From: a virus
Strand: one strand, 5' to 3'
DNA: 23,081 bases
IMG/VR virus record: IMGVR_UViG_3300025072_000053
Span: 1-23,081 of that record
In this document: piece by piece, positions 2,739 through 17,094 of the stretch
Numbering within the stretch: position 1 is the first letter of the stretch
Layout of the letters: each line of letters begins with the position of its first letter
Translations under genes and position numbers: made by a program
The notes under the pieces: model-generated
Databases searched by the model: none
Seen by the model: the letters and a program-made list of their open reading frames with translations, nothing else
What the model was told of the DNA's origin: nothing

Positions 2739-3116
2739 ATGACAACTATAAAGGATAGTCCAGTACAGAAAAGTTTTGATGTAAATAAATATAAAATAGT
2801 AGAAGATAATCAAATTTATACTGTAAAAATTAATGATGATGAATTCGATGTAACAGTCAAACCAGTAACATGGCAATTAAAAAATGAGTTAATAGCTAAA
2901 TGTATGAAGTTTGACCAAGATGGAAGTTCTTCATTTGATGGTGGTACTTATATAAAAGAAGTTTTAAAAGCAATAATTATTGAAGCCCCTTGGGGTAAAA
3001 CAGATAATAAATTTCTAGATTCTATAAATTCAGATTTAGGAGCTGCTTTAGAAAAATTAGTTCCATCAGCTTTTGATACTAATTTCAATGAGGTAGATGT
3101 AGTAAAAAAAGAATAG
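2739..3116 (+). CDS. Tail assembly chaperone, upstream frame (lambda gpG-like)
   Basis: A 125-residue protein starting at an ATG after AAGGAGG. It has the make-up of a phage tail assembly chaperone: a short beta N-terminus (residues 20-45, with FDVTVKPVTWQLKNELIAKC) followed by a helical body. These proteins bind the tape measure and tube subunits during tail assembly and are absent from the virion. The gene lies between tail tube and tape measure, the standard place. Its last codons run through seven A residues and then TAG, and a -1 slip there would join it to the downstream frame to make a 208-residue product. Identification rests on synteny plus the frameshift signal. Confidence 0.7.
   Translation: MTTIKDSPVQKSFDVNKYKIVEDNQIYTVKINDDEFDVTVKPVTWQLKNELIAKCMKFDQDGSSSFDGGTYIKEVLKAIIIEAPWGKTDNKFLDSINSDLGAALEKLVPSAFDTNFNEVDVVKKE
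3091..3116 (+). promoter_or_regulatory. Programmed -1 ribosomal frameshift site
   Basis: The zero frame reads GTA AAA AAA GAA TAG, so A AAA AAA at 3104-3110 is a perfect X XXY YYZ heptamer, followed by G as in the A AAA AAG sites used in bacteria. An SD-like AGGT at 3091-3094 lies nine bases upstream, the arrangement that stimulates slippage in dnaX. The -1 frame is open from here to 3364, continuing RIDRFLRGVN into the next protein. Stop TAG is four bases past the heptamer. Confidence 0.75.
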
Positions 3117-7800: not shown

Positions 7801-8123
7801 ATGCAGCATCAGATAGAAGATCAAAGAAAAATATAAAGCCTTCTAAATTAGGACTTGATTTTATTAATGATTTAAACCCTGTAAGTTTTCAATGGAATTC
7901 TAGTGAAACAAAACATATAGAACATGGAATTATTGCTCAAGAAGTAATTGAAGCTATGAAAAAACAAGGCATTAATGATTTAGAACAATTTACAGGAATT
8001 AGATATGATAAAAAAACAAAGCGATATCTAGGTAGATATATGCAGTTTATGGCTCCAATGATGAAAGCAATACAAGAATTATCAGCTAAAGTAGAAAAGT
8101 TAGAAAATGAAGGCGAAAAATAA
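4878..8123 (+). CDS. Tail hub/fibre protein with C-terminal S74 self-cleaving chaperone
   Basis: A 1081-residue protein. Residues 38-101 form a small beta module related to those in the tail tube protein. About 100-330 (VPIKVLEGATNTVLFSGDIA and following) resembles tail hub or baseplate proteins. The middle is strand-rich, with an acidic calcium-type loop DDDNDGMPDE at 825-834. From residue 978 the sequence matches peptidase S74 intramolecular chaperones: SDRRSKKNI, then LNPVSFQW and HGIIAQEV, then a terminal coiled coil (ELSAKVEKLENEGEK). S978 and K983 have the five-residue spacing of the known Ser-Lys dyad, so cleavage before S978 is predicted after trimer folding, leaving a 977-residue mature protein. 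It starts by TAATG overlap and overlaps the next gene by 17 bases. Confidence 0.8.
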   Translation: MTDTLQFKASKVYVWIQVAQLNDTSDDGGGGAGTGISNSRTSITVDTGHKLSNGMTVLIDSEEVTISNCDSSTDTAITIDRAETGTSAATHLDNAPIYAWWEVTDATNTQSLVQSLTITDEIYKPMMLQLVLSNFSLTTKFSVGELDGVITEGVPIKVLEGATNTVLFSGDIARVTKQHALEEGNTLQIAAYDALHELGRTKIVGDDAEVLLKDGGGSAADISTYKYSEIIKLLVQRFQYSGINTTENNITFTEPTSGSEPRFEPSRYVRPATDRNDRVTFASSDTSVLKAIQRMALADQITTNGFGYTFYVDPNFTKTSTAHKPAAFFNYYKTSFMPHQDESTSISTGKITFQNYFESDPVTENGSTRLIKSGASFDNLDVDKANVINVRFRDPNTGRIRNLEFEIFWYSAYSVATSHFSTAYSGKKIIADSHDTAGVHGAHDPKLNAGTPTDFAARLIDTDENVIGYVQYASSTSAGFLLVSGSNTKTATSKVVAGENLWLNKKASNDYITLTSVTDVEAGKQFRPQEALEQKIMVNMDFGLESSHDNIRQAVAARVAQKGDPKVRGRIQISNNYPQTTFEHQVLAADTLATSAIGSLTKTEWTDAVLAAGGGLTDGGDGHSSLTLFPQLGLRAGHVLAKLTGQHGTVDTYGYLEKVEANKLTVTLNSGTLSNNDYVRFHVPIRAGHMVKVRSTHHNIGDFTGGNCMVTSINYLESAGSAYTDIETLGLRSTSGQEIIGTERPELLNIDDSQNDDWQGHPFGFVNEPHFTGAFSVGDTGGNDKDRAINWLAGTLYIGNETYAIAADDSEDATYGINGLMGITDDDNDGMPDERYVIYFEPTVSTTRFAFATESNFEARNAIEGRNTASSLLLPFGQNRIKIGTAFASKSGANAKFNILIKSGLSTVTETGSARQNVPRPEFVIGGAQLSGDIDTHFVPTLTAAGADPVTDAGYDLGSTARNWRQIHAQDTSINAASDRRSKKNIKPSKLGLDFINDLNPVSFQWNSSETKHIEHGIIAQEVIEAMKKQGINDLEQFTGIRYDKKTKRYLGRYMQFMAPMMKAIQELSAKVEKLENEGEK

Positions 8124-8538
8124 AGTTGTTAGATTGCGTAAAAACAATCCTTTCATGTCTACAGCAAAGATCGCAAAACAAGTTGGAGTGACTAGGGTAT
8201 ATGCTCATCAAGTATTAAAAAAGAATGATTTAGAAACTAATCCACCCAAACCTAAAAAAGTGGTATACTGTAAAGTATGTGGAGAAATAACGAACACAAG
8301 TCGAAGTATTCATAAGGGAGAATGCACCTTTAAATGGAACTATTTAAAATTAACATGTTCTTGGTGTTCAGTTCCTTTCTACAGACATAAAAAGATAATA
8401 AAGCAAAATTACAGGTTAAAACTAAAAAATGTATACTGCAGCAGACAATGTTTTCAAACAGCAAGGACACAAAAGATTGGAAATAAACAACGAACTTATA
8501 TTGAAGTGGGAACCGAAAGTCTACAAAATGTTGGCTAA
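8107..8538 (+). CDS. Helix-turn-helix and zinc-binding protein (putative regulator)
   Basis: A 143-residue basic protein whose ATG lies inside the end of the fibre gene. Residues 17-39 (STAKIAKQVGVTRVYAHQVL) form a clear helix-turn-helix. Two cysteine clusters follow: CKVC with a later HKGEC, and CSWC with a later YCSRQC, each able to bind zinc. This suggests sequence-specific nucleic acid binding. Because it precedes and overlaps a sigma-like gene, a role in phage transcription control is plausible. An HNH-type or other homing protein is less likely, since I see no catalytic His-Asn-His pattern. Confidence 0.6.
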   Translation: MKAKNKVVRLRKNNPFMSTAKIAKQVGVTRVYAHQVLKKNDLETNPPKPKKVVYCKVCGEITNTSRSIHKGECTFKWNYLKLTCSWCSVPFYRHKKIIKQNYRLKLKNVYCSRQCFQTARTQKIGNKQRTYIEVGTESLQNVG

Positions 8539-9028
8539 TGTATATGTTTATGGATATGATAAAGAAGATTTAGCACAAGAATTACGATTAGTTATATGTA
8601 AAGCTGCTAAACTTTATAACCCTAATAAGAAAACCATCTTTCATACTTATCTACATACTGCAATGGCTAACACTTTAAAAACTCTATGGATGAAGGCAGC
8701 TAAAAGATTACAAAGTTATAGTCTTGACAAAGAATTTGAAACAAACGATAATAATGATTATCATTATTCATTAAATGATTTTACAAAACAAATAGATATA
8801 AATTTATTAGACTTAGAAGTTGATGATTTATTAGATTCTTTAGGGTTAGATAAAGGTGAAAAACAATTTCTGATCGATAAATTTAAAAATCGTACAATGA
8901 GAGATATAGAAAGTAATTTAAAAAAAATCAAAGATACAGAAATAGTAAATAAAGAAGAGGTGCCGAAAACATATTCGGTGTACAAAGTAAAGAAATCTTT
9001 GAGAAATAAGTTTAGAGAGAATGATTAG
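8477..9028 (+). CDS. Phage RNA polymerase sigma factor, sigma-70 region 2 type
   Basis: A protein of about 183 residues. The segment DKEDLAQELRLVICKAAKLY followed by NPNKKTIFHTYL matches sigma-70 region 2, which binds the polymerase clamp and recognises the -10 element. The C-terminal part (LDKGEKQFLIDKF, then KVKKSLRNKF at the end) looks like a divergent region 4 with an insertion. I prefer TTG 8477 as start because AAGGA at 8463-8467 precedes it by nine bases; ATG 8429 would add 16 residues but has a weak RBS and a longer overlap, and ATG 8528 would cut into region 2. The product would redirect host RNA polymerase, as T4 gp55 does for late genes. Confidence 0.7.
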   Translation: MEINNELILKWEPKVYKMLANVYVYGYDKEDLAQELRLVICKAAKLYNPNKKTIFHTYLHTAMANTLKTLWMKAAKRLQSYSLDKEFETNDNNDYHYSLNDFTKQIDINLLDLEVDDLLDSLGLDKGEKQFLIDKFKNRTMRDIESNLKKIKDTEIVNKEEVPKTYSVYKVKKSLRNKFREND

Positions 9029-9030
9029 TA

Positions 9031-10272
9031 TTGGAAAATTTTAATTTTATAGAATCTGGAATTATATTTGGATTATGTAATCCAAGTAATTTTAAGGATT
9101 TTACATATTTACCTAAAGATTTTGCTGAACATGGTGAAACATATAAGTTCATTCAAGATTATTTAGATAATTATTCTGAATTCCCTACTGTAGAAGTTTT
9201 AGTAGAGAAATTTGATTCATTAAAAATCGAAGCACAATCAATAAATTTCAATTATGCTTTATCCCAATTTACTAACCAAGTAATGTTTAGAAATATAGTT
9301 AATGCTTTCTCTAGTAGTAAACCCTTATTACAAGATAATCCTAAAAAAGCATTAGGATTAATTATGGATAAGTTAAATGATGTAGAAATATTATATGATT
9401 CTGATGTTAATCAATATGACTCTGGAAATTTAGATAGATATGAGGAATGGAAACGTAGAAGTAAGATTAGAAAAATGGGGGATGGTATTATTGGGATAAG
9501 AACACCATTTAAAATGATTAATTCTACAGGAATAGGATGGCAACCGGGAGATTTAATCACTACATATGCAAGACCAACTGTAGGGAAAACATGGTTATGT
9601 TGTAAATTAGCTGCAGATGCGATAAAAAGTGGTTATAAAACCTTATTAGTATCTACAGAAATGCCTAAGACTGCTATAAGTTTACGAATGGATGTATTAT
9701 TAGGTCATATGATGAACTATAAATTATCTCATAGTGCACTTAGGAATGGTAAAGATATAGATGAAGAAGAATATAAAAAGTTTTTAGAAGAAACAGATTT
9801 CAAAAATCTATTAATTTGTGATCATATAAGTGGGGAAGATAGTATATCATTACCAAGTATTACAAATTTGGTAAGAAAGTATTCCCCCGATCTATTGATA
9901 GTAGATGGAGTATATTTAATATCTACATATGATAAAAATAGAGCAGCTTGGGAACAATCACATTCATTATTCTATGGTTTAAAAACTCTAGCTCTATCAA
10001 CTAATACTGCTATAATAGCCTCAACTCAAGCAACAAGAGAAGCTGCAGCTAATATGTTTACTCAACCAACAGCTGGTCAAGTAGCATTTGGGGATGCTTT
10101 AATTAGAGCTTCTGATGTAGCGTTATCAATGTGTATGATAGAAGATCAACCAAAGAAAAGAGAAATAGCTTTCCAAAAATATAGAGATGGAGATTTACAA
10201 TCATTAGATTGTGAGTTTATTTGGGATGTTGATAAAGGGAGAATAGAAGAAGATGATGACTCATTATTCTAG
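9031..10272 (+). CDS. dnaB: DnaB-like replicative DNA helicase
   Basis: A 413-residue RecA-fold ATPase of the DnaB family that unwinds DNA at the phage fork. Walker A is ARPTVGKT at residues 180-187 (K186), with Ala in place of the usual first Gly. Walker B is DLLIVDG at 287-293. STEMPK after the first strand and STQATREAAAN later fit DnaB motifs. The roughly 130-residue N-terminal part is helical. A TGA at 9022 blocks any upstream start in this frame, so TTG 9031 after AGAGAGA is the start. It overlaps the next gene by 20 bases, and its primase partner follows shortly. Confidence 0.85.
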   Translation: MENFNFIESGIIFGLCNPSNFKDFTYLPKDFAEHGETYKFIQDYLDNYSEFPTVEVLVEKFDSLKIEAQSINFNYALSQFTNQVMFRNIVNAFSSSKPLLQDNPKKALGLIMDKLNDVEILYDSDVNQYDSGNLDRYEEWKRRSKIRKMGDGIIGIRTPFKMINSTGIGWQPGDLITTYARPTVGKTWLCCKLAADAIKSGYKTLLVSTEMPKTAISLRMDVLLGHMMNYKLSHSALRNGKDIDEEEYKKFLEETDFKNLLICDHISGEDSISLPSITNLVRKYSPDLLIVDGVYLISTYDKNRAAWEQSHSLFYGLKTLALSTNTAIIASTQATREAAANMFTQPTAGQVAFGDALIRASDVALSMCMIEDQPKKREIAFQKYRDGDLQSLDCEFIWDVDKGRIEEDDDSLF

Positions 10273-10579
10273 AAGAAGGAAATCCAAACCTGTAAAACAA
10301 TTTGCTGGATTTACCATTGATAATAAGAATAATGTATTTTCCAAACTAAAATGTGGTAAATGTTCCATAGATGGAAAATTAAAAATAGGAGTATCTGTTC
10401 TAGATGTTAAATCATTATTAAATAAAAGAATGTTGGGGGTAGTTAAAGACGATCCTTCATGTATAAAATGTGGGACAAGGTTTCCTCAAGGATTTAGGAG
10501 AGTAGTAAATGGTTACATATACAAGACAAAAAAAGAAGTACTTAATAAAGATGACGGATTGGACTCAAGTTTTAACTAA
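10253..10579 (+). CDS. Small zinc-ribbon-like protein of unknown function
   Basis: A 108-residue basic protein with two CxxC pairs, CGKC near residue 34 and CIKC near residue 70, which probably bind one zinc. It is wedged between helicase and primase and overlaps both genes, so it is co-translated with the replication proteins. No family is recognised. A role as a small DNA- or RNA-binding factor in replication or middle-gene control is a guess from context. ATG 10253 and ATG 10256 are adjacent alternatives after GGGAG. Confidence 0.55.
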   Translation: MMTHYSRRRKSKPVKQFAGFTIDNKNNVFSKLKCGKCSIDGKLKIGVSVLDVKSLLNKRMLGVVKDDPSCIKCGTRFPQGFRRVVNGYIYKTKKEVLNKDDGLDSSFN

Positions 10580-11420: not shown

Positions 11421-12155
11421 ATGTCAGGAATCGGTATGATACAAAAAAGATTAGAAGATAGAATTGCTAAACAATCACAAGTTAGTGAAAGTAGCGGAAA
11501 AGAAATTTGGTTAAAAGATGGAGATCAACTTTTTATGAAAGCTATTGCTACTGGTGATGAAAATGATATCTATTTACATGAATTCCATATTTATGAGTTC
11601 CAACAAGGAGCAGATAAGGGATGGAGAAGTGTACTTGTAATAGATGGGGAACCTGTAGATGCAGTACCTAGTGAAGCTATGTATTGGGATGACCAGCCGG
11701 ATAAAAGAAAGTTACCTAGACACAAATTCGCTCTTTGGGGATACGTTACAGAGATACTTCACCCCAATAAAAGAGATGAATCATGGGATGAGATAACAAG
11801 TCGGTCAGGAGTGAAAATGTATAGAGAATCAGTTAATGATTTTAAAGTTCTCACACTGTCTTTTGGGGCTCGTAATACCAATTTTTATCAATTTTCAGAT
11901 ATATATGATGAAAATGGGTCTTTAAATAAAAATATAATTAGGATAAAGAGAAGAGGGTCTAACCTAGACACTACTTATACTATTACAACCACTAAAGAGG
12001 TTATAGATATTCCTGAAAATAAAGCGAGTGAAATTAAAAATCTTACTCCTATGTCGGAATATGTTGAACAAAGGTATGGAAAATCTACTTCAGATACAAG
12101 TGTTCCTGATAATGCTGTATCAACTGAAGATGATGACGATGATATGCCGTTCTAA
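11421..12155 (+). CDS. Putative single-stranded DNA-binding protein with SSB-type acidic tip
   Basis: A 244-residue protein after a strong AAGGAGG. Its body is strand-rich (residues 25-190), compatible with an OB fold. Its last eight residues, DDDDDMPF, closely resemble the DDDIPF tip of bacterial SSB that recruits polymerase, helicase and repair partners. The preceding 25 residues are a low-complexity linker, also as in SSB. It sits between primase and DNA polymerase and overlaps the downstream frame by TAATG. I see no zinc motif as in T4 gp32. The function is inferred from tail, size and synteny. Confidence 0.7.
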   Translation: MSGIGMIQKRLEDRIAKQSQVSESSGKEIWLKDGDQLFMKAIATGDENDIYLHEFHIYEFQQGADKGWRSVLVIDGEPVDAVPSEAMYWDDQPDKRKLPRHKFALWGYVTEILHPNKRDESWDEITSRSGVKMYRESVNDFKVLTLSFGARNTNFYQFSDIYDENGSLNKNIIRIKRRGSNLDTTYTITTTKEVIDIPENKASEIKNLTPMSEYVEQRYGKSTSDTSVPDNAVSTEDDDDDMPF

Positions 12156-12181
12156 TGTATAGCACTTCTCCCCTTGTCAAA

Positions 12182-12212
12182 GACTCTCCGGTTCTAATAC
12201 AATCGGAGAGTC
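12182..12212 (+). promoter_or_regulatory. Hairpin that sequesters the polA ribosome binding site (putative translational operator)
   Basis: GACTCTCCG at 12182-12190 is perfectly complementary to CGGAGAGTC at 12204-12212. One G-U and two A-U pairs extend the stem to 12 pairs with a seven-base loop CTAATAC. The 3' arm contains GGAGAG at 12205-12210, which sits ten bases before ATG 12221, the likely polA start. Folding would hide this RBS. No T-tract follows, so it is not a normal intrinsic terminator. Confidence 0.7.
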
Positions 12213-12220
12213 GTAATAAC

Positions 12221-14236
12221 ATGATAGTTACTTCAGAAACATTTAAAGATACATTAAAATCATTTCCAGATACTTCTACATGGATAATAGATGTGGAAAC
12301 TAATGGACTTAACCCTTATGATATGAATCAATTATGTGGTATAGGTTTAGCCCCATTAAATCACTCTGAAAACGAGGCATATTATTTCCCATTTAGACAC
12401 CAAACAGATGAACCTAATTTAACTCAAGCAGAATTGAATGAGTTAGTACAGTTTATAAATGATAAATGTGACACTATTATTGGATATAATGTGAAATTTG
12501 ATGTTAAATTTCTTAATAACGAAGGTGTTAATATTGATAAAATGAAATTTATAGATGTAATAGTTGCAGTTAGAATGACTGAATCTAGTACGGTCAATAG
12601 TTTGAAACTTGTAGATACATTAATTAGAAGTTATGGAGAGCAAGCAGGTAAATATGATATTGAAACTAAGCAGATTCTTCGTGAAAATAAATGGACTAAA
12701 GACTTTTCTCTATCTCCACCATCAATATTAGGTCCTTATTGTATAAAAGATGTATATTGGGCACAGAAAATATATTTAGATAGGCTTGAAAAATTAGAAG
12801 AATCAGGTCAATTAGAGTTATTTGAATTTCAATGTGAACTTACTAAAACTTTATATGACATGGAAAATCGTGGGATTACTATTAATAATGATTATGCTAG
12901 AATTGTTAGTAAAAAAATAGAGGGAAGAGTAAAAGAGTTAAAGCAACGTATATATGATTTAGCTAGTGATGAACTTTTAAAAAAATTAGGATTTGAAGAA
13001 TTAAAATTTAAATTTAATATAAGTAGTCCTCAACAAATTGGTAGAGTATTTAACTTAATGGGTATACATTCCCCTTCTACAACTCCAACAGGGGCAGAAG
13101 CTTGGAATGAGGCAGTACTGATTCAATTGAATAATCCACTCGCAGGTTTAATTAGACAATATAGAACTTTAGAAAAGTTTCGTTCTACTTATATAGAACC
13201 TTATTTGGATATGAATATACTCCATACTAGTTTTCATAATTCAGGTACAGTAACAGGTAGGTTATCTTCACGAAATCCAAACCTTCAAAATATACCTAGA
13301 GGGATAATATATGTAGATGATAGGGAGTTATCTGAAGAAGATAAAGATGAAATTAGAGGTAGAGTAGCAGCGATAGTATCTAGTAAGGGTGGTAATTCTC
13401 AAACCAATCTTACAGATGACGTAATTGAGACATGGAGTTTCCTTGGTGGAGATAATTTTGATTCGACAGATGAAAAACAAGTGTCTATAAGAAATTTGTT
13501 TATACCTAGACAAAATTATAAATTAGTGTCTTATGATTATTCACAAATGGAAGTTAGAGTTTTTATGAATTATGTCAATAATCCTGAAATGAATGAGTTA
13601 ATGAAAAAAGAAAATATAGATTTTCATGGAGAAGCGGCTAAAATTGCTTTTAATATTGAAGAAACTGACCCTGAATTTAAATTTTACAGACAATTAGCTA
13701 AGTCCATTACTTTTGGAGTTATATATGGTATAGGTAAAGATAAGTTAGCACTACAATTAAATTCTACTCCACAAGAAGCGAGCAAATATAAAAGAACTTA
13801 TTTAGAAAATATGAAGGGTTCTAAAAGATTTTTTGATAATGTAGTAAGAACTATAGTAAAAAAGGGATGGGTTCGTAATAAATATAGTAGAATTTATAAA
13901 GTACCAAGAGATGTGGCGTATAGAGGGGTTAATTATTTAATACAAGGAACAAGTGCGGATATTATGAATGAAAGAATGGTTGTTATACATAATTATCTAA
14001 AAGATAAGAAGAGTAATTTGCTTTTACAAGTGCATGATGAAATTATATGTGAAATTCATAATGATGAAATTGAGGAAGTAGCTCCCAAAATTAAGGAGTT
14101 AATGGTAGAAAATTCTTTAAATATACCATTAGAAGTAGATATTGAGCTTTGTGAGCCCTCTTGGGCAGTGAAAAAAGAATATCAGGTGACTGAAAATAAA
14201 AAAATTAATATAATTGATTATATAGACTGGGATTAA
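12221..14236 (+). CDS. polA: Family A DNA polymerase (PolA) with 3'-5' proofreading exonuclease
   Basis: The phage replicative polymerase, about 671 residues from ATG 12221, or 693 from ATG 12155, which overlaps the SSB stop. Numbering from 12155: exonuclease motifs D46xE48, N112xxxD116 and Y195xxxD199 are intact; polymerase motif A is DYSQMEVR starting at D461; motif B has R512, K516, F520 and Y524; motif C is HDE at 627-629. No 5' nuclease domain is present. F520 matches E. coli F762. Compared with E. coli Pol I, about 55 extra residues lie between NIPRG (379-383) and IRNLF (445), just before motif A. I prefer ATG 12221 because GGAGAG precedes it, within a hairpin. Both starts may be used. 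Confidence 0.93.
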   Translation: MIVTSETFKDTLKSFPDTSTWIIDVETNGLNPYDMNQLCGIGLAPLNHSENEAYYFPFRHQTDEPNLTQAELNELVQFINDKCDTIIGYNVKFDVKFLNNEGVNIDKMKFIDVIVAVRMTESSTVNSLKLVDTLIRSYGEQAGKYDIETKQILRENKWTKDFSLSPPSILGPYCIKDVYWAQKIYLDRLEKLEESGQLELFEFQCELTKTLYDMENRGITINNDYARIVSKKIEGRVKELKQRIYDLASDELLKKLGFEELKFKFNISSPQQIGRVFNLMGIHSPSTTPTGAEAWNEAVLIQLNNPLAGLIRQYRTLEKFRSTYIEPYLDMNILHTSFHNSGTVTGRLSSRNPNLQNIPRGIIYVDDRELSEEDKDEIRGRVAAIVSSKGGNSQTNLTDDVIETWSFLGGDNFDSTDEKQVSIRNLFIPRQNYKLVSYDYSQMEVRVFMNYVNNPEMNELMKKENIDFHGEAAKIAFNIEETDPEFKFYRQLAKSITFGVIYGIGKDKLALQLNSTPQEASKYKRTYLENMKGSKRFFDNVVRTIVKKGWVRNKYSRIYKVPRDVAYRGVNYLIQGTSADIMNERMVVIHNYLKDKKSNLLLQVHDEIICEIHNDEIEEVAPKIKELMVENSLNIPLEVDIELCEPSWAVKKEYQVTENKKINIIDYIDWD

Positions 14237-15854: not shown

Positions 15855-16856
15855 ATGAAAGAAACTGCAGAATCAATATTTAATGAATTATTAAATGATA
15901 AAAAATTAGCTACTAAAAGAGGAGACGATGAAAGTTTTGCTTATGGTAGAATACCATTTAATATTCCACAATTAGATAGAATAACAGCTGGTGGTATACC
16001 TAGAAAAAGATTTACATTGCTTTTTGGTGGGTGGTCATCAGGTAAATCTTATATAGCATCTCAACTTTGTAAATCTGTACAAGAAGATGGGGGAGTTTCA
16101 GTTTGGATAGACTTAGAAAAATCATGGGATCCTGCATGGATGGAAAAAGTTGGTATAGATATAACTAAAATAATAGTAGCTGACCCCGCAACTGCAGAAG
16201 AAGCATTTAAGATTGCTCAAAAGAGTTTAAGAACTGGAGTAGATTTAGTAGTGTTAGATAGTGTAGCAGGAATAATACCTGCAGATATATTTAATAACGA
16301 AAAAGGTATTGACTATAGTCCTATAGCATGGCAATCAAGAACATGGAATCAAATGTTAATTAGATTACTTCCTGATTTAACATATGGAAGTTCATTGGTT
16401 GCTATTAATCAAACTAGAGGAGCTATGGGACCAATCACTGCAATGGAAACTATGCCCGGTGGGGAAGGACAAAAGTTCTTTTCACATTGTTGTATGCAAG
16501 TTTCCAAAGGTGGTTGGTTAAATGAACCAGCATCTTCAACTAACAGAGTGGGTTTTGAAATCAAAGTAAAACTATTAAAAGATAAATTTGGTGGGGAGAG
16601 ATGGGAAGAAGTAGTTATACCATTTCGTATAGAAGGTGGAGTAGATGTTGTGGAGACTTACGTTAGATTAGGATTAGAATATGGAATAATTAAACAAACA
16701 GGAGCTTGGTATACCTACGAAAAAATGCCTAATAAAGTAACAGGTATTAACAAAGTAGTAGACTGGTTTAAAGAAAACCCTGAAGATTACGAGAGGTTTA
16801 AGAATGAGACCGAAGAGTTTTACACCACAAGAGAATCTAATAGCCAAAGTTCTTGA
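15855..16856 (+). CDS. uvsX: RecA/UvsX-like recombinase
   Basis: A 333-residue RecA-family protein that would pair homologous strands in phage recombination and recombination-primed replication. Walker A is GGWSSGKS at residues 58-65, the catalytic glutamate is E88 in WIDLEKSWDP, Walker B is VVLDS at 132-136 (D135), and AINQTR at 183-188 matches the RecA INQ motif that senses nucleotide and DNA. Core length fits the RecA fold, with a short acidic C-terminus. AGAGG lies upstream of ATG 15855. Its last 53 bases also encode the start of the next gene. Confidence 0.88.
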   Translation: MKETAESIFNELLNDKKLATKRGDDESFAYGRIPFNIPQLDRITAGGIPRKRFTLLFGGWSSGKSYIASQLCKSVQEDGGVSVWIDLEKSWDPAWMEKVGIDITKIIVADPATAEEAFKIAQKSLRTGVDLVVLDSVAGIIPADIFNNEKGIDYSPIAWQSRTWNQMLIRLLPDLTYGSSLVAINQTRGAMGPITAMETMPGGEGQKFFSHCCMQVSKGGWLNEPASSTNRVGFEIKVKLLKDKFGGERWEEVVIPFRIEGGVDVVETYVRLGLEYGIIKQTGAWYTYEKMPNKVTGINKVVDWFKENPEDYERFKNETEEFYTTRESNSQSS

Positions 16857-17094
16857 AGAAACAGGACTTCGTTATGCTAGACAAGTACCTATAGGAAATT
16901 ATACTGTAGACTTTCTTATAACAGAAATGAATGTTATAATAGAAGCAGATGGTCCTTTTGGACATTTAGCAAAAAGAGATATTAAAAGAGATGACGACTT
17001 AATAAACATGGGTTTTACAGAAGTTTGGCATCTTAAAGAGAAAACATATAAAGATATAAAGGAGAGGTTATGGCAGGAATTGAAGCTATATTAA
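16804..17094 (+). CDS. DUF559/Vsr-like PD-(D/E)XK endonuclease
   Basis: A 96-residue nuclease. SFTPQENLIAKVL at residues 5-17 and RQVPIGNYTVDFLI, with IIEADGPFGH, form the DUF559/Vsr-like pattern: E10, D36, E47, D49 and H54 are the likely catalytic residues. Vsr nicks DNA at T:G mismatches within the Dcm context; DUF559 proteins are often of unknown substrate. GAGAGG before ATG 16804 supports this start even though it lies 53 bases inside the recA-like gene. Being sandwiched between RecA-like and Cas4-like genes, it probably nicks or trims DNA during recombination. Confidence 0.7.
   Translation: MRPKSFTPQENLIAKVLEETGLRYARQVPIGNYTVDFLITEMNVIIEADGPFGHLAKRDIKRDDDLINMGFTEVWHLKEKTYKDIKERLWQELKLY

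Follow-up and report, generated by a model that had tools for sequence, protein, structure and literature searches.

A hairpin covering the Shine-Dalgarno sequence of a family A DNA polymerase gene in a clade of uncultured phages, with a leader open in the polymerase frame in part of the clade

Among phage replicative polymerases, the T4-type family B enzymes are the best-known examples of translational control exerted through a structured start region; for a family A phage polymerase, no case was found in the literature searched, which took in few subscription papers. Autoregulation is already known for T4 gp43 and gp32 (PMC3014915, PMC535899), sequestration of the ribosome binding site (RBS) in a hairpin for the T4-type genes e, soc, 49 and I-TevI and for Aeh1 mobE (PMC3014915), and translational coupling by unfolding or by re-initiation (PMC12548453). 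Among the marine and phage RNA motifs of PMC2864571, the part of the table covered names none for ssb or polA.

The DNA analyzed here (the window) is a viral stretch of 23,081 nucleotides in which genes for a DnaB-like helicase and a primase (Pfam, PHROG) lie 5' of an ssb-polA pair. The features of this pair and of its junction are the following.

11421..12155, + strand: ssb, 244 aa, gp32-like single-stranded DNA-binding protein (likely) with the acidic tail DDDDDMPF (PHROG 9721, E 5e-4; AlphaFold model)
12155..12157, + strand: putative upstream in-frame polA ATG, overlapping the ssb stop (TAATG; TAA at 12153-12155), without a Shine-Dalgarno (SD) sequence of its own (SD energy −0.6)
12155..12220, + strand: leader, open in the polA frame, encoding MYSTSPLVKDSPVLIQSESRNN (frame analysis)
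12164..12173, + strand: pyrimidine run ACTTCTCCCC, near the place of ACCTCC in relatives (Thr-Ser codons ACT TCT vs. ACC TCC; sequence comparison)
12182..12193, + strand: 5' arm of the hairpin, pyrimidine-rich and anti-SD-like (folding, covariation)
12194..12200, + strand: hairpin loop CTAATAC (folding)
12201..12212, + strand: 3' arm of the hairpin (folding, covariation)
12205..12210, + strand: GGAGAG, SD-like, within the 3' arm, 10 nt 5' of the ATG at 12221 (sequence, SD energy, opening cost)
12221..14236, + strand: polA core frame, 671 aa from the ATG at 12221, family A DNA polymerase with a 3'-5' exonuclease domain (Pfam DNA_pol_A, E 9e-79, and DNA_pol_A_exo1, E 5e-7; PHROG 17)

The top matches of the ssb AlphaFold model (pLDDT 72) are the RB69 and T4 gp32 cores (Z 7.8 and 7.6 over 166-168 residues), with the next unrelated structural match at Z 4.2 and a Foldseek E of just 0.03; the assignment as gp32-like is likely, not certain, because a Z below 8 falls short of proof.

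Hairpins that cover an RBS are themselves a known kind, and what is new is the variant with predicted in-frame re-initiation ahead of a family A polA. The transcripts of T4 e, soc, 49 and I-TevI and of mobE resemble this one in enclosing the SD in an intramolecular helix close to the start codon (PMC3014915). For T4 e and I-TevI, late promoters give transcripts that lack the 5' arm (PMC3014915), whereas here promoter-like matches do not rise above chance; moreover, the gene concerned here encodes a replicative DNA polymerase, and the stem can fall within an in-frame extension. The gp43 operator, too, is a hairpin that precedes a phage DNA polymerase gene, close to the RBS. Between T4 and RB69, the uppermost 10 bases and a UAAC loop are the same, and the hairpins are located some 40 bases upstream (PMC3014915); here, by contrast, the stems, of 11-17 pairs, overlap with the SD, loops vary, and the polymerase belongs to family A, not family B. 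In the coupled pairs f1 genes VII-IX, MS2/fr coat-lysis and rpmI-rplT, the downstream RBS is in a hairpin and a TAATG overlap occurs, as here (PMC12548453), but the re-initiation start at this locus is in the polA frame, so that re-initiation would yield an extended protein and not only free an RBS. T4 genes 25 and 38, with split RBSs, also have a hairpin in the start region, and their long SD-to-ATG spacing is shared by one group of relatives (group B, below); there the hairpin lies between SD and AUG (PMC3014915), whereas here the SD is within the stem and none lies upstream, there being no SD-like purine run between the ssb stop and the stem of the window. T4 gene 32 autoregulation has in common with this locus a gp32-like SSB gene, here the adjoining one, but acts on its own leader through a pseudoknot and an A+U-rich RBS (PMC3014915), in contrast to the plain hairpin before polA.

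The hairpin at 12182-12212 (GACTCTCCGGTTCTAATACAATCGGAGAGTC) comprises 12 pairs and a 7-base loop (−17.2 kcal/mol), with nine Watson-Crick pairs (GACTCTCCG/CGGAGAGTC) followed by G-U, U-A and U-A. The preliminary description of this DNA, made from the single sequence, had placed and paired the stem correctly, including GGAGAG in the 3' arm, and had correctly noted that the ssb stop overlaps the ATG at 12155 (TAATG, in frame, adding 22 residues). This is the strongest local fold of the window in 45-nt tiles. The window has a single perfect 9-bp stem (at least 6 G/C, loop of 3-20), and of 60 dinucleotide-shuffled windows only one has any. By energy alone, however, 14 of the 60 shuffled windows hold an equal or stronger 45-nt tile, so the single sequence is only moderately striking, and it is the comparative evidence, i.e. 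the compensatory changes, that settles the reality of the hairpin. Rfam 15 gave no match in the window at the gathering score and none in nine relative loci at E up to 1.

To compare relatives, we sampled loci from viral contigs (the best 80 of 338 for polA and the best 80 of 262 for ssb, confirmed by scans); 157 of these contained both genes and yielded 69 distinct ssb-polA junctions. One locus with a broken ssb frame (L142, with a leader as in L032) was excluded from the folding counts, the trees exclude six junctions whose proteins are short or whose ssb lacks a start, and folding was limited to outgroup junctions whose genes are at most 130 nt apart, which leaves aside 12. In the polA tree (63 rows), the window, 24 group B and 5 group C sequences form one clade (100/100), apart from 33 others. 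A foreign origin of ssb in group C was considered and dropped, as groups A, B and C stay together in a quick ssb tree (SH-aLRT 89). The clade represents a large family of uncultured, probably marine phages; no close relatives were found among 50,697 phage records, and a scan of genome contigs found remote polymerases only.

All 33 folded clade junctions, with 25 distinct sequences, have the hairpin at the same place, with 11-17 pairs and energies of −17.2 to −23.6 kcal/mol. Thus, relatives that keep the start layout and lack the stem, the counter-case named in the preliminary description, are absent (0 of 33). A further scan brought in more group C members, and the group C analysis covered 12 sequences with 10 distinct leaders, some from contigs already sampled; the hairpin is present in all, and one locus (L218) was excluded, the junction being absent at the place read. 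Outside the clade, the element is absent from 35 of 35 junctions, a sample from the best-scoring loci: in 16, polA starts no more than 25 nt past the ssb stop, in 7 the leader is a different one of 36-107 nt, and in 12 the genes are more than 130 nt apart. With a covariance model, each of 14 clade records gave a single strong match (E ≤2.1e-10), and a whole-record search of six outgroup records gave nothing better than E 0.16. Across the 20 records searched, no repeat copy fell below E 0.039; the next match in the window (10253-10332, E 0.047) corresponds to the similar acidic tail of the helicase gene.

Some outgroup junctions hold additional genes. In L145, a deaminase gene (2437-2840; Pfam dCMP_cyt_deam_1, E 3e-18) lies between ssb and polA, and similar insertions were seen by eye in L146, L147, L152, L154 and L160; the junction is a site of repeated insertion. 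L055 has a 37-aa ORF (2898-3011) between the two genes that overlaps the polA start, with similar ones, by eye, in L059 and L062.

The stem changes in a compensating fashion, the check that the preliminary description had proposed. Among 28 distinct aligned sequences, 92.7% of 329 cells are paired, and 11 of the 12 pairs show two-sided changes, with 68 such cells compared to 16.8 in shuffles; none of 500 shuffles reached the native values of pairing or covariation. When the alignment is slid by 1-3 columns, pairing drops to 37-59%; these slid versions take relatedness into account, whereas the covariation shuffles ignore it. For group C alone, 99.1% of 110 cells are paired and the covariation score exceeds all 500 shuffles, although the three pairs with two-sided change were matched in 135 of 500. 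Synonymous resampling of 10 leaders gave 0 of 500 resamples as stable as the native sequence in each. G-U cells outnumber A-C cells in the aligned stem 55 to 7, an excess suggestive of selection on the RNA of this strand. At the five central pairs, the 3' base is a purine in every one of 140 cells, whereas the outer pairs swap sides. From these comparisons, the hairpin is almost certainly real and selected as RNA. It is a base-paired element of the mRNA strand, with a purine-rich, SD-like 3' arm, that the sequence comparisons place solely between ssb and polA and in one polA clade.

The loop behaves differently, and the conservation of CTAATAC that the preliminary description had named as support was not found. 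The window has CTAATAC, group B mostly ATGTCCT (exceptions L012, L039, L037 and L102), and group C TTTGACTCA, TAAACTCA or TAACTTATCCTG. A long-range helix between the group B loop and the ssb RBS (AGGACAT) was rejected, because groups with the ssb RBS GGAGGCTTA or GGAGACGTA retain the loop ATGTCCT and because the window has AGGACAT without that loop.

The 3' arm coincides with the polA SD. A search for SD-like matches no farther than 28 nt from the polA start puts the best one inside the 3' arm in all 33 clade junctions, with match energies of −6.4 to −11.6 kcal/mol in 32 and a weak match in L012 (−2.9). The calculated cost of opening the SD core is 15.6 kcal/mol for the window (14.4 when the context length is changed) and 10.1-18.9 kcal/mol across the clade, compared to a median of 2.7 and a maximum of 4.8 kcal/mol for the SDs of 18 other window genes; with the 5' arm masked, the median for the clade drops to 6.7 kcal/mol. 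The earlier proposal that the stem hides the polA SD is thus borne out, with an opening cost of 14-16 kcal/mol and maintenance by compensatory change in related phages. In group C, 9 of 12 sequences have the SD GGAGGA 9-10 nt from the ATG, and opening costs are 11-18.5 over the 12. The SD-to-ATG spacing is 10 nt in the window, 7-13 in group C and 12-23 in group B; the group B spacing exceeds what most other window genes use, which makes an SD role in that group doubtful. Judged from these folding energies and their conservation, it is quite probable that the hairpin lowers direct initiation at polA.

The leader itself can be read in the polA frame. The window type and group B together have 24 distinct leaders, whose 518 codons in this frame include no stop, compared to 53 and 37 stops in the other two frames, which affect 24 and 19 of the leaders, respectively; every one of the 24 has an in-frame upstream ATG. 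An ATG on the ssb stop is present in each of the 11 leaders with a gap of 2 mod 3 and in none of the 13 with a gap of 1 mod 3, where the ATG lies inside the ssb acidic tail instead. Leader frame and start position switched together, perhaps a single time on the tree, so the 11 and the 13 leaders are not independent. The two in-frame polA starts of the preliminary description are thereby supported indirectly, by the stop-free leaders and by the upstream start that co-varies with the frame. A polA-frame-open leader that runs from a start at or inside the end of ssb, found by sequence comparison in all 24 leaders of the window type and group B, is new here. Apart from the open frame, the peptide is not conserved (50/57/59 substitutions at the three codon positions; 39 synonymous vs. 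100 non-synonymous codon changes). Met 12221 and its neighboring residues are conserved. Translation of the N-terminal extension is probable in the window type and its nearest relatives, and the open frame and the position of the start lend somewhat better than even support to use of the upstream start, and hence to an extended PolA, in the window type. A programmed frameshift from ssb into polA was rejected by eye, the frame relation being opposite in sign between the two sub-groups. In group C, 9 of 10 distinct leaders carry polA-frame stops, and the leader lengths (57, 58, 60 and 62) differ by amounts that are not all multiples of three; the hairpin therefore exists in translated and untranslated versions of the leader.

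The preliminary description had also suggested that ribosomes finishing ssb melt the stem. This is not what the layout indicates: the stem begins 15-26 nt past the ssb stop, and masking an assumed ribosome footprint (to 11 nt past the stop) in a simple model leaves the opening cost in the same range, so that ssb termination alone should not open it. Opening by ssb ribosomes would need re-initiation at 12155 and read-through of the stem. A start at or near the ssb stop combined with a frame open through the stem is found in all 24 leaders of the window type and group B, whereas 9 of 10 group C leaders lack this combination; for group C, nothing was found that opens the stem, since a ribosome at the ssb stop falls short of it.

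We therefore consider, as the reading best compatible with the leader and folding data and with modest confidence, that the hairpin would act in cis as a throttle on direct polA initiation that is by-passed by ribosomes re-initiating from ssb. The buried SD would keep direct initiation at the ATG at 12221 very low, and the mRNA, with its open and strong ssb SD, would give rise to little PolA. In the window type and group B, ribosomes ending ssb would start again at the in-frame ATG that overlaps this gene (12155 here) and translate on through the stem, yielding an N-terminally extended PolA (693 aa here); this read-through may also briefly uncover the SD for the 671-residue PolA. In group C, there would be no read-through, and the stem would be a plain cover on a textbook SD. 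In either form, the hairpin probably keeps polymerase output low or tied to ssb translation. This would be a covariation-supported case for a family A polymerase in a large clade of uncultured phages, and, given the natural translated and untranslated leaders, leader swaps could separate the roles of re-initiation and SD cover.

A different, rather unlikely explanation is a translational operator, whereby PolA or the gp32-like SSB binds the hairpin and the preceding pyrimidine element and represses polA when off DNA, as with T4 gp43 and gp32. The location at the RBS and an adjoining SSB that models like gp32 are compatible with this, as are the T4/RB69 gp32 and gp43 precedents, described as mRNA-specific repressors (PMC3014915, PMC535899). 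The usual ATGTCCT loop of group B would also fit, as would the pyrimidine element, since ACCTCC, invariant outside the window type, occurs 2-14 nt past the ssb stop in 32 of 33 folded clade junctions (e.g. L017 2938, L050 2941), and the group C run AACCTCCTCTCAAT is identical in 12 of 12 sequences and non-coding there. However, the window is the sole folded clade junction without ACCTCC, the loop and ACCTCC of group B largely double as codons, and the loop sequence varies among the window, group B and group C, so that the gp43-like operator with a conserved loop put forward in the preliminary description finds no support. ACCTCC, which we take to be the 16S anti-SD motif, does not track changes in the 3' arm. 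A back-up anti-SD role was rejected for it: masking ACCUCC after the 5' arm shifts the median opening cost merely from 6.7 to 6.3 kcal/mol, with a clear effect in L051/L053 alone (9.0 to 3.0).

Slightly less probable still is an intercistronic mRNA element, i.e. a stem that guards the 3' end of the ssb message, takes part in processing of that end or stops ribosomes from running on, with the SD overlap being secondary. Three distant relatives (L075, L078 and L081) have strong but unrelated hairpins immediately 3' of ssb, followed by a free SD, and in a reporter screen cited in PMC12548453, structure after the stop reduces coupling. On the other hand, there is no U-tract or T run after the stem and no terminator-like site was found, and the constant purines of the 3' arm (140 of 140 central cells) count against such an element. 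The leader, moreover, tracks polA and not ssb where the two disagree. In L088, L089 and L096, ssb is nearest to L012/L097 (78% vs. 67% for the L131 clade), whereas polA is nearest to the L131 clade (87% vs. 76%), and the leaders resemble those of the L131 clade (76% vs. 68%), which argues, from this single event, that the hairpin leader belongs with polA. An unrelated strong hairpin likewise occurs just after ssb in the outgroup locus L083.

A more elaborate and improbable proposal, beyond a simple operator, is that the ssb-polA leader is a sensor RNA of replication state that arose apart from T4, in which free gp32-like SSB (or PolA) would, when not engaged on single-stranded DNA, recognize the hairpin together with the pyrimidine element, which in relatives is ACCUCC, and so determine whether PolA is extended, through read-through from ssb, or short, from direct initiation.

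A DNA-level element between ssb and polA, such as a single-strand origin or a primase site, would fit the conserved place amid replication genes and the single copy per record, but is very improbable given that the G-U over A-C excess (55 vs. 7) is that expected for RNA of this strand and that SD identity is retained. A coding by-product or chance palindrome, to which the open polA frame of the window type and group B and the equally strong tiles in 14 of 60 shuffled windows might point, is the least credible of all, being refuted by covariation and at odds with the synonymous resampling (0 of 500 in each of 10 leaders) and with retention of the hairpin in group C, whose leader has stops.

A sigma-70 promoter within the stem was also considered (TTGTCA-18-TACAAT at 12174-12203, with the −10 element in the loop) and is not favored: promoter-like matches in the region number 12, compared to 12.5 in shuffles, and L017 has none at the corresponding place.

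Elsewhere in the window, the C-terminus of the DnaB-like helicase (IEEDDDSLF, 10230-10272) resembles the acidic tip of the SSB (12130-12155; DDDDDMPF, DDDDSLF in relatives), and, by this resemblance, the two tips may share one binding partner. A small ORF at 16804-17094, in another frame and overlapping the end of a RecA/UvsX-like gene, has an endonuclease-like DUF559 match (E 6e-12), and a possible phage sigma factor (PHROG 351, E 1e-8) is encoded at 8429-9028, in another frame and overlapping the ORF at 8107-8538.
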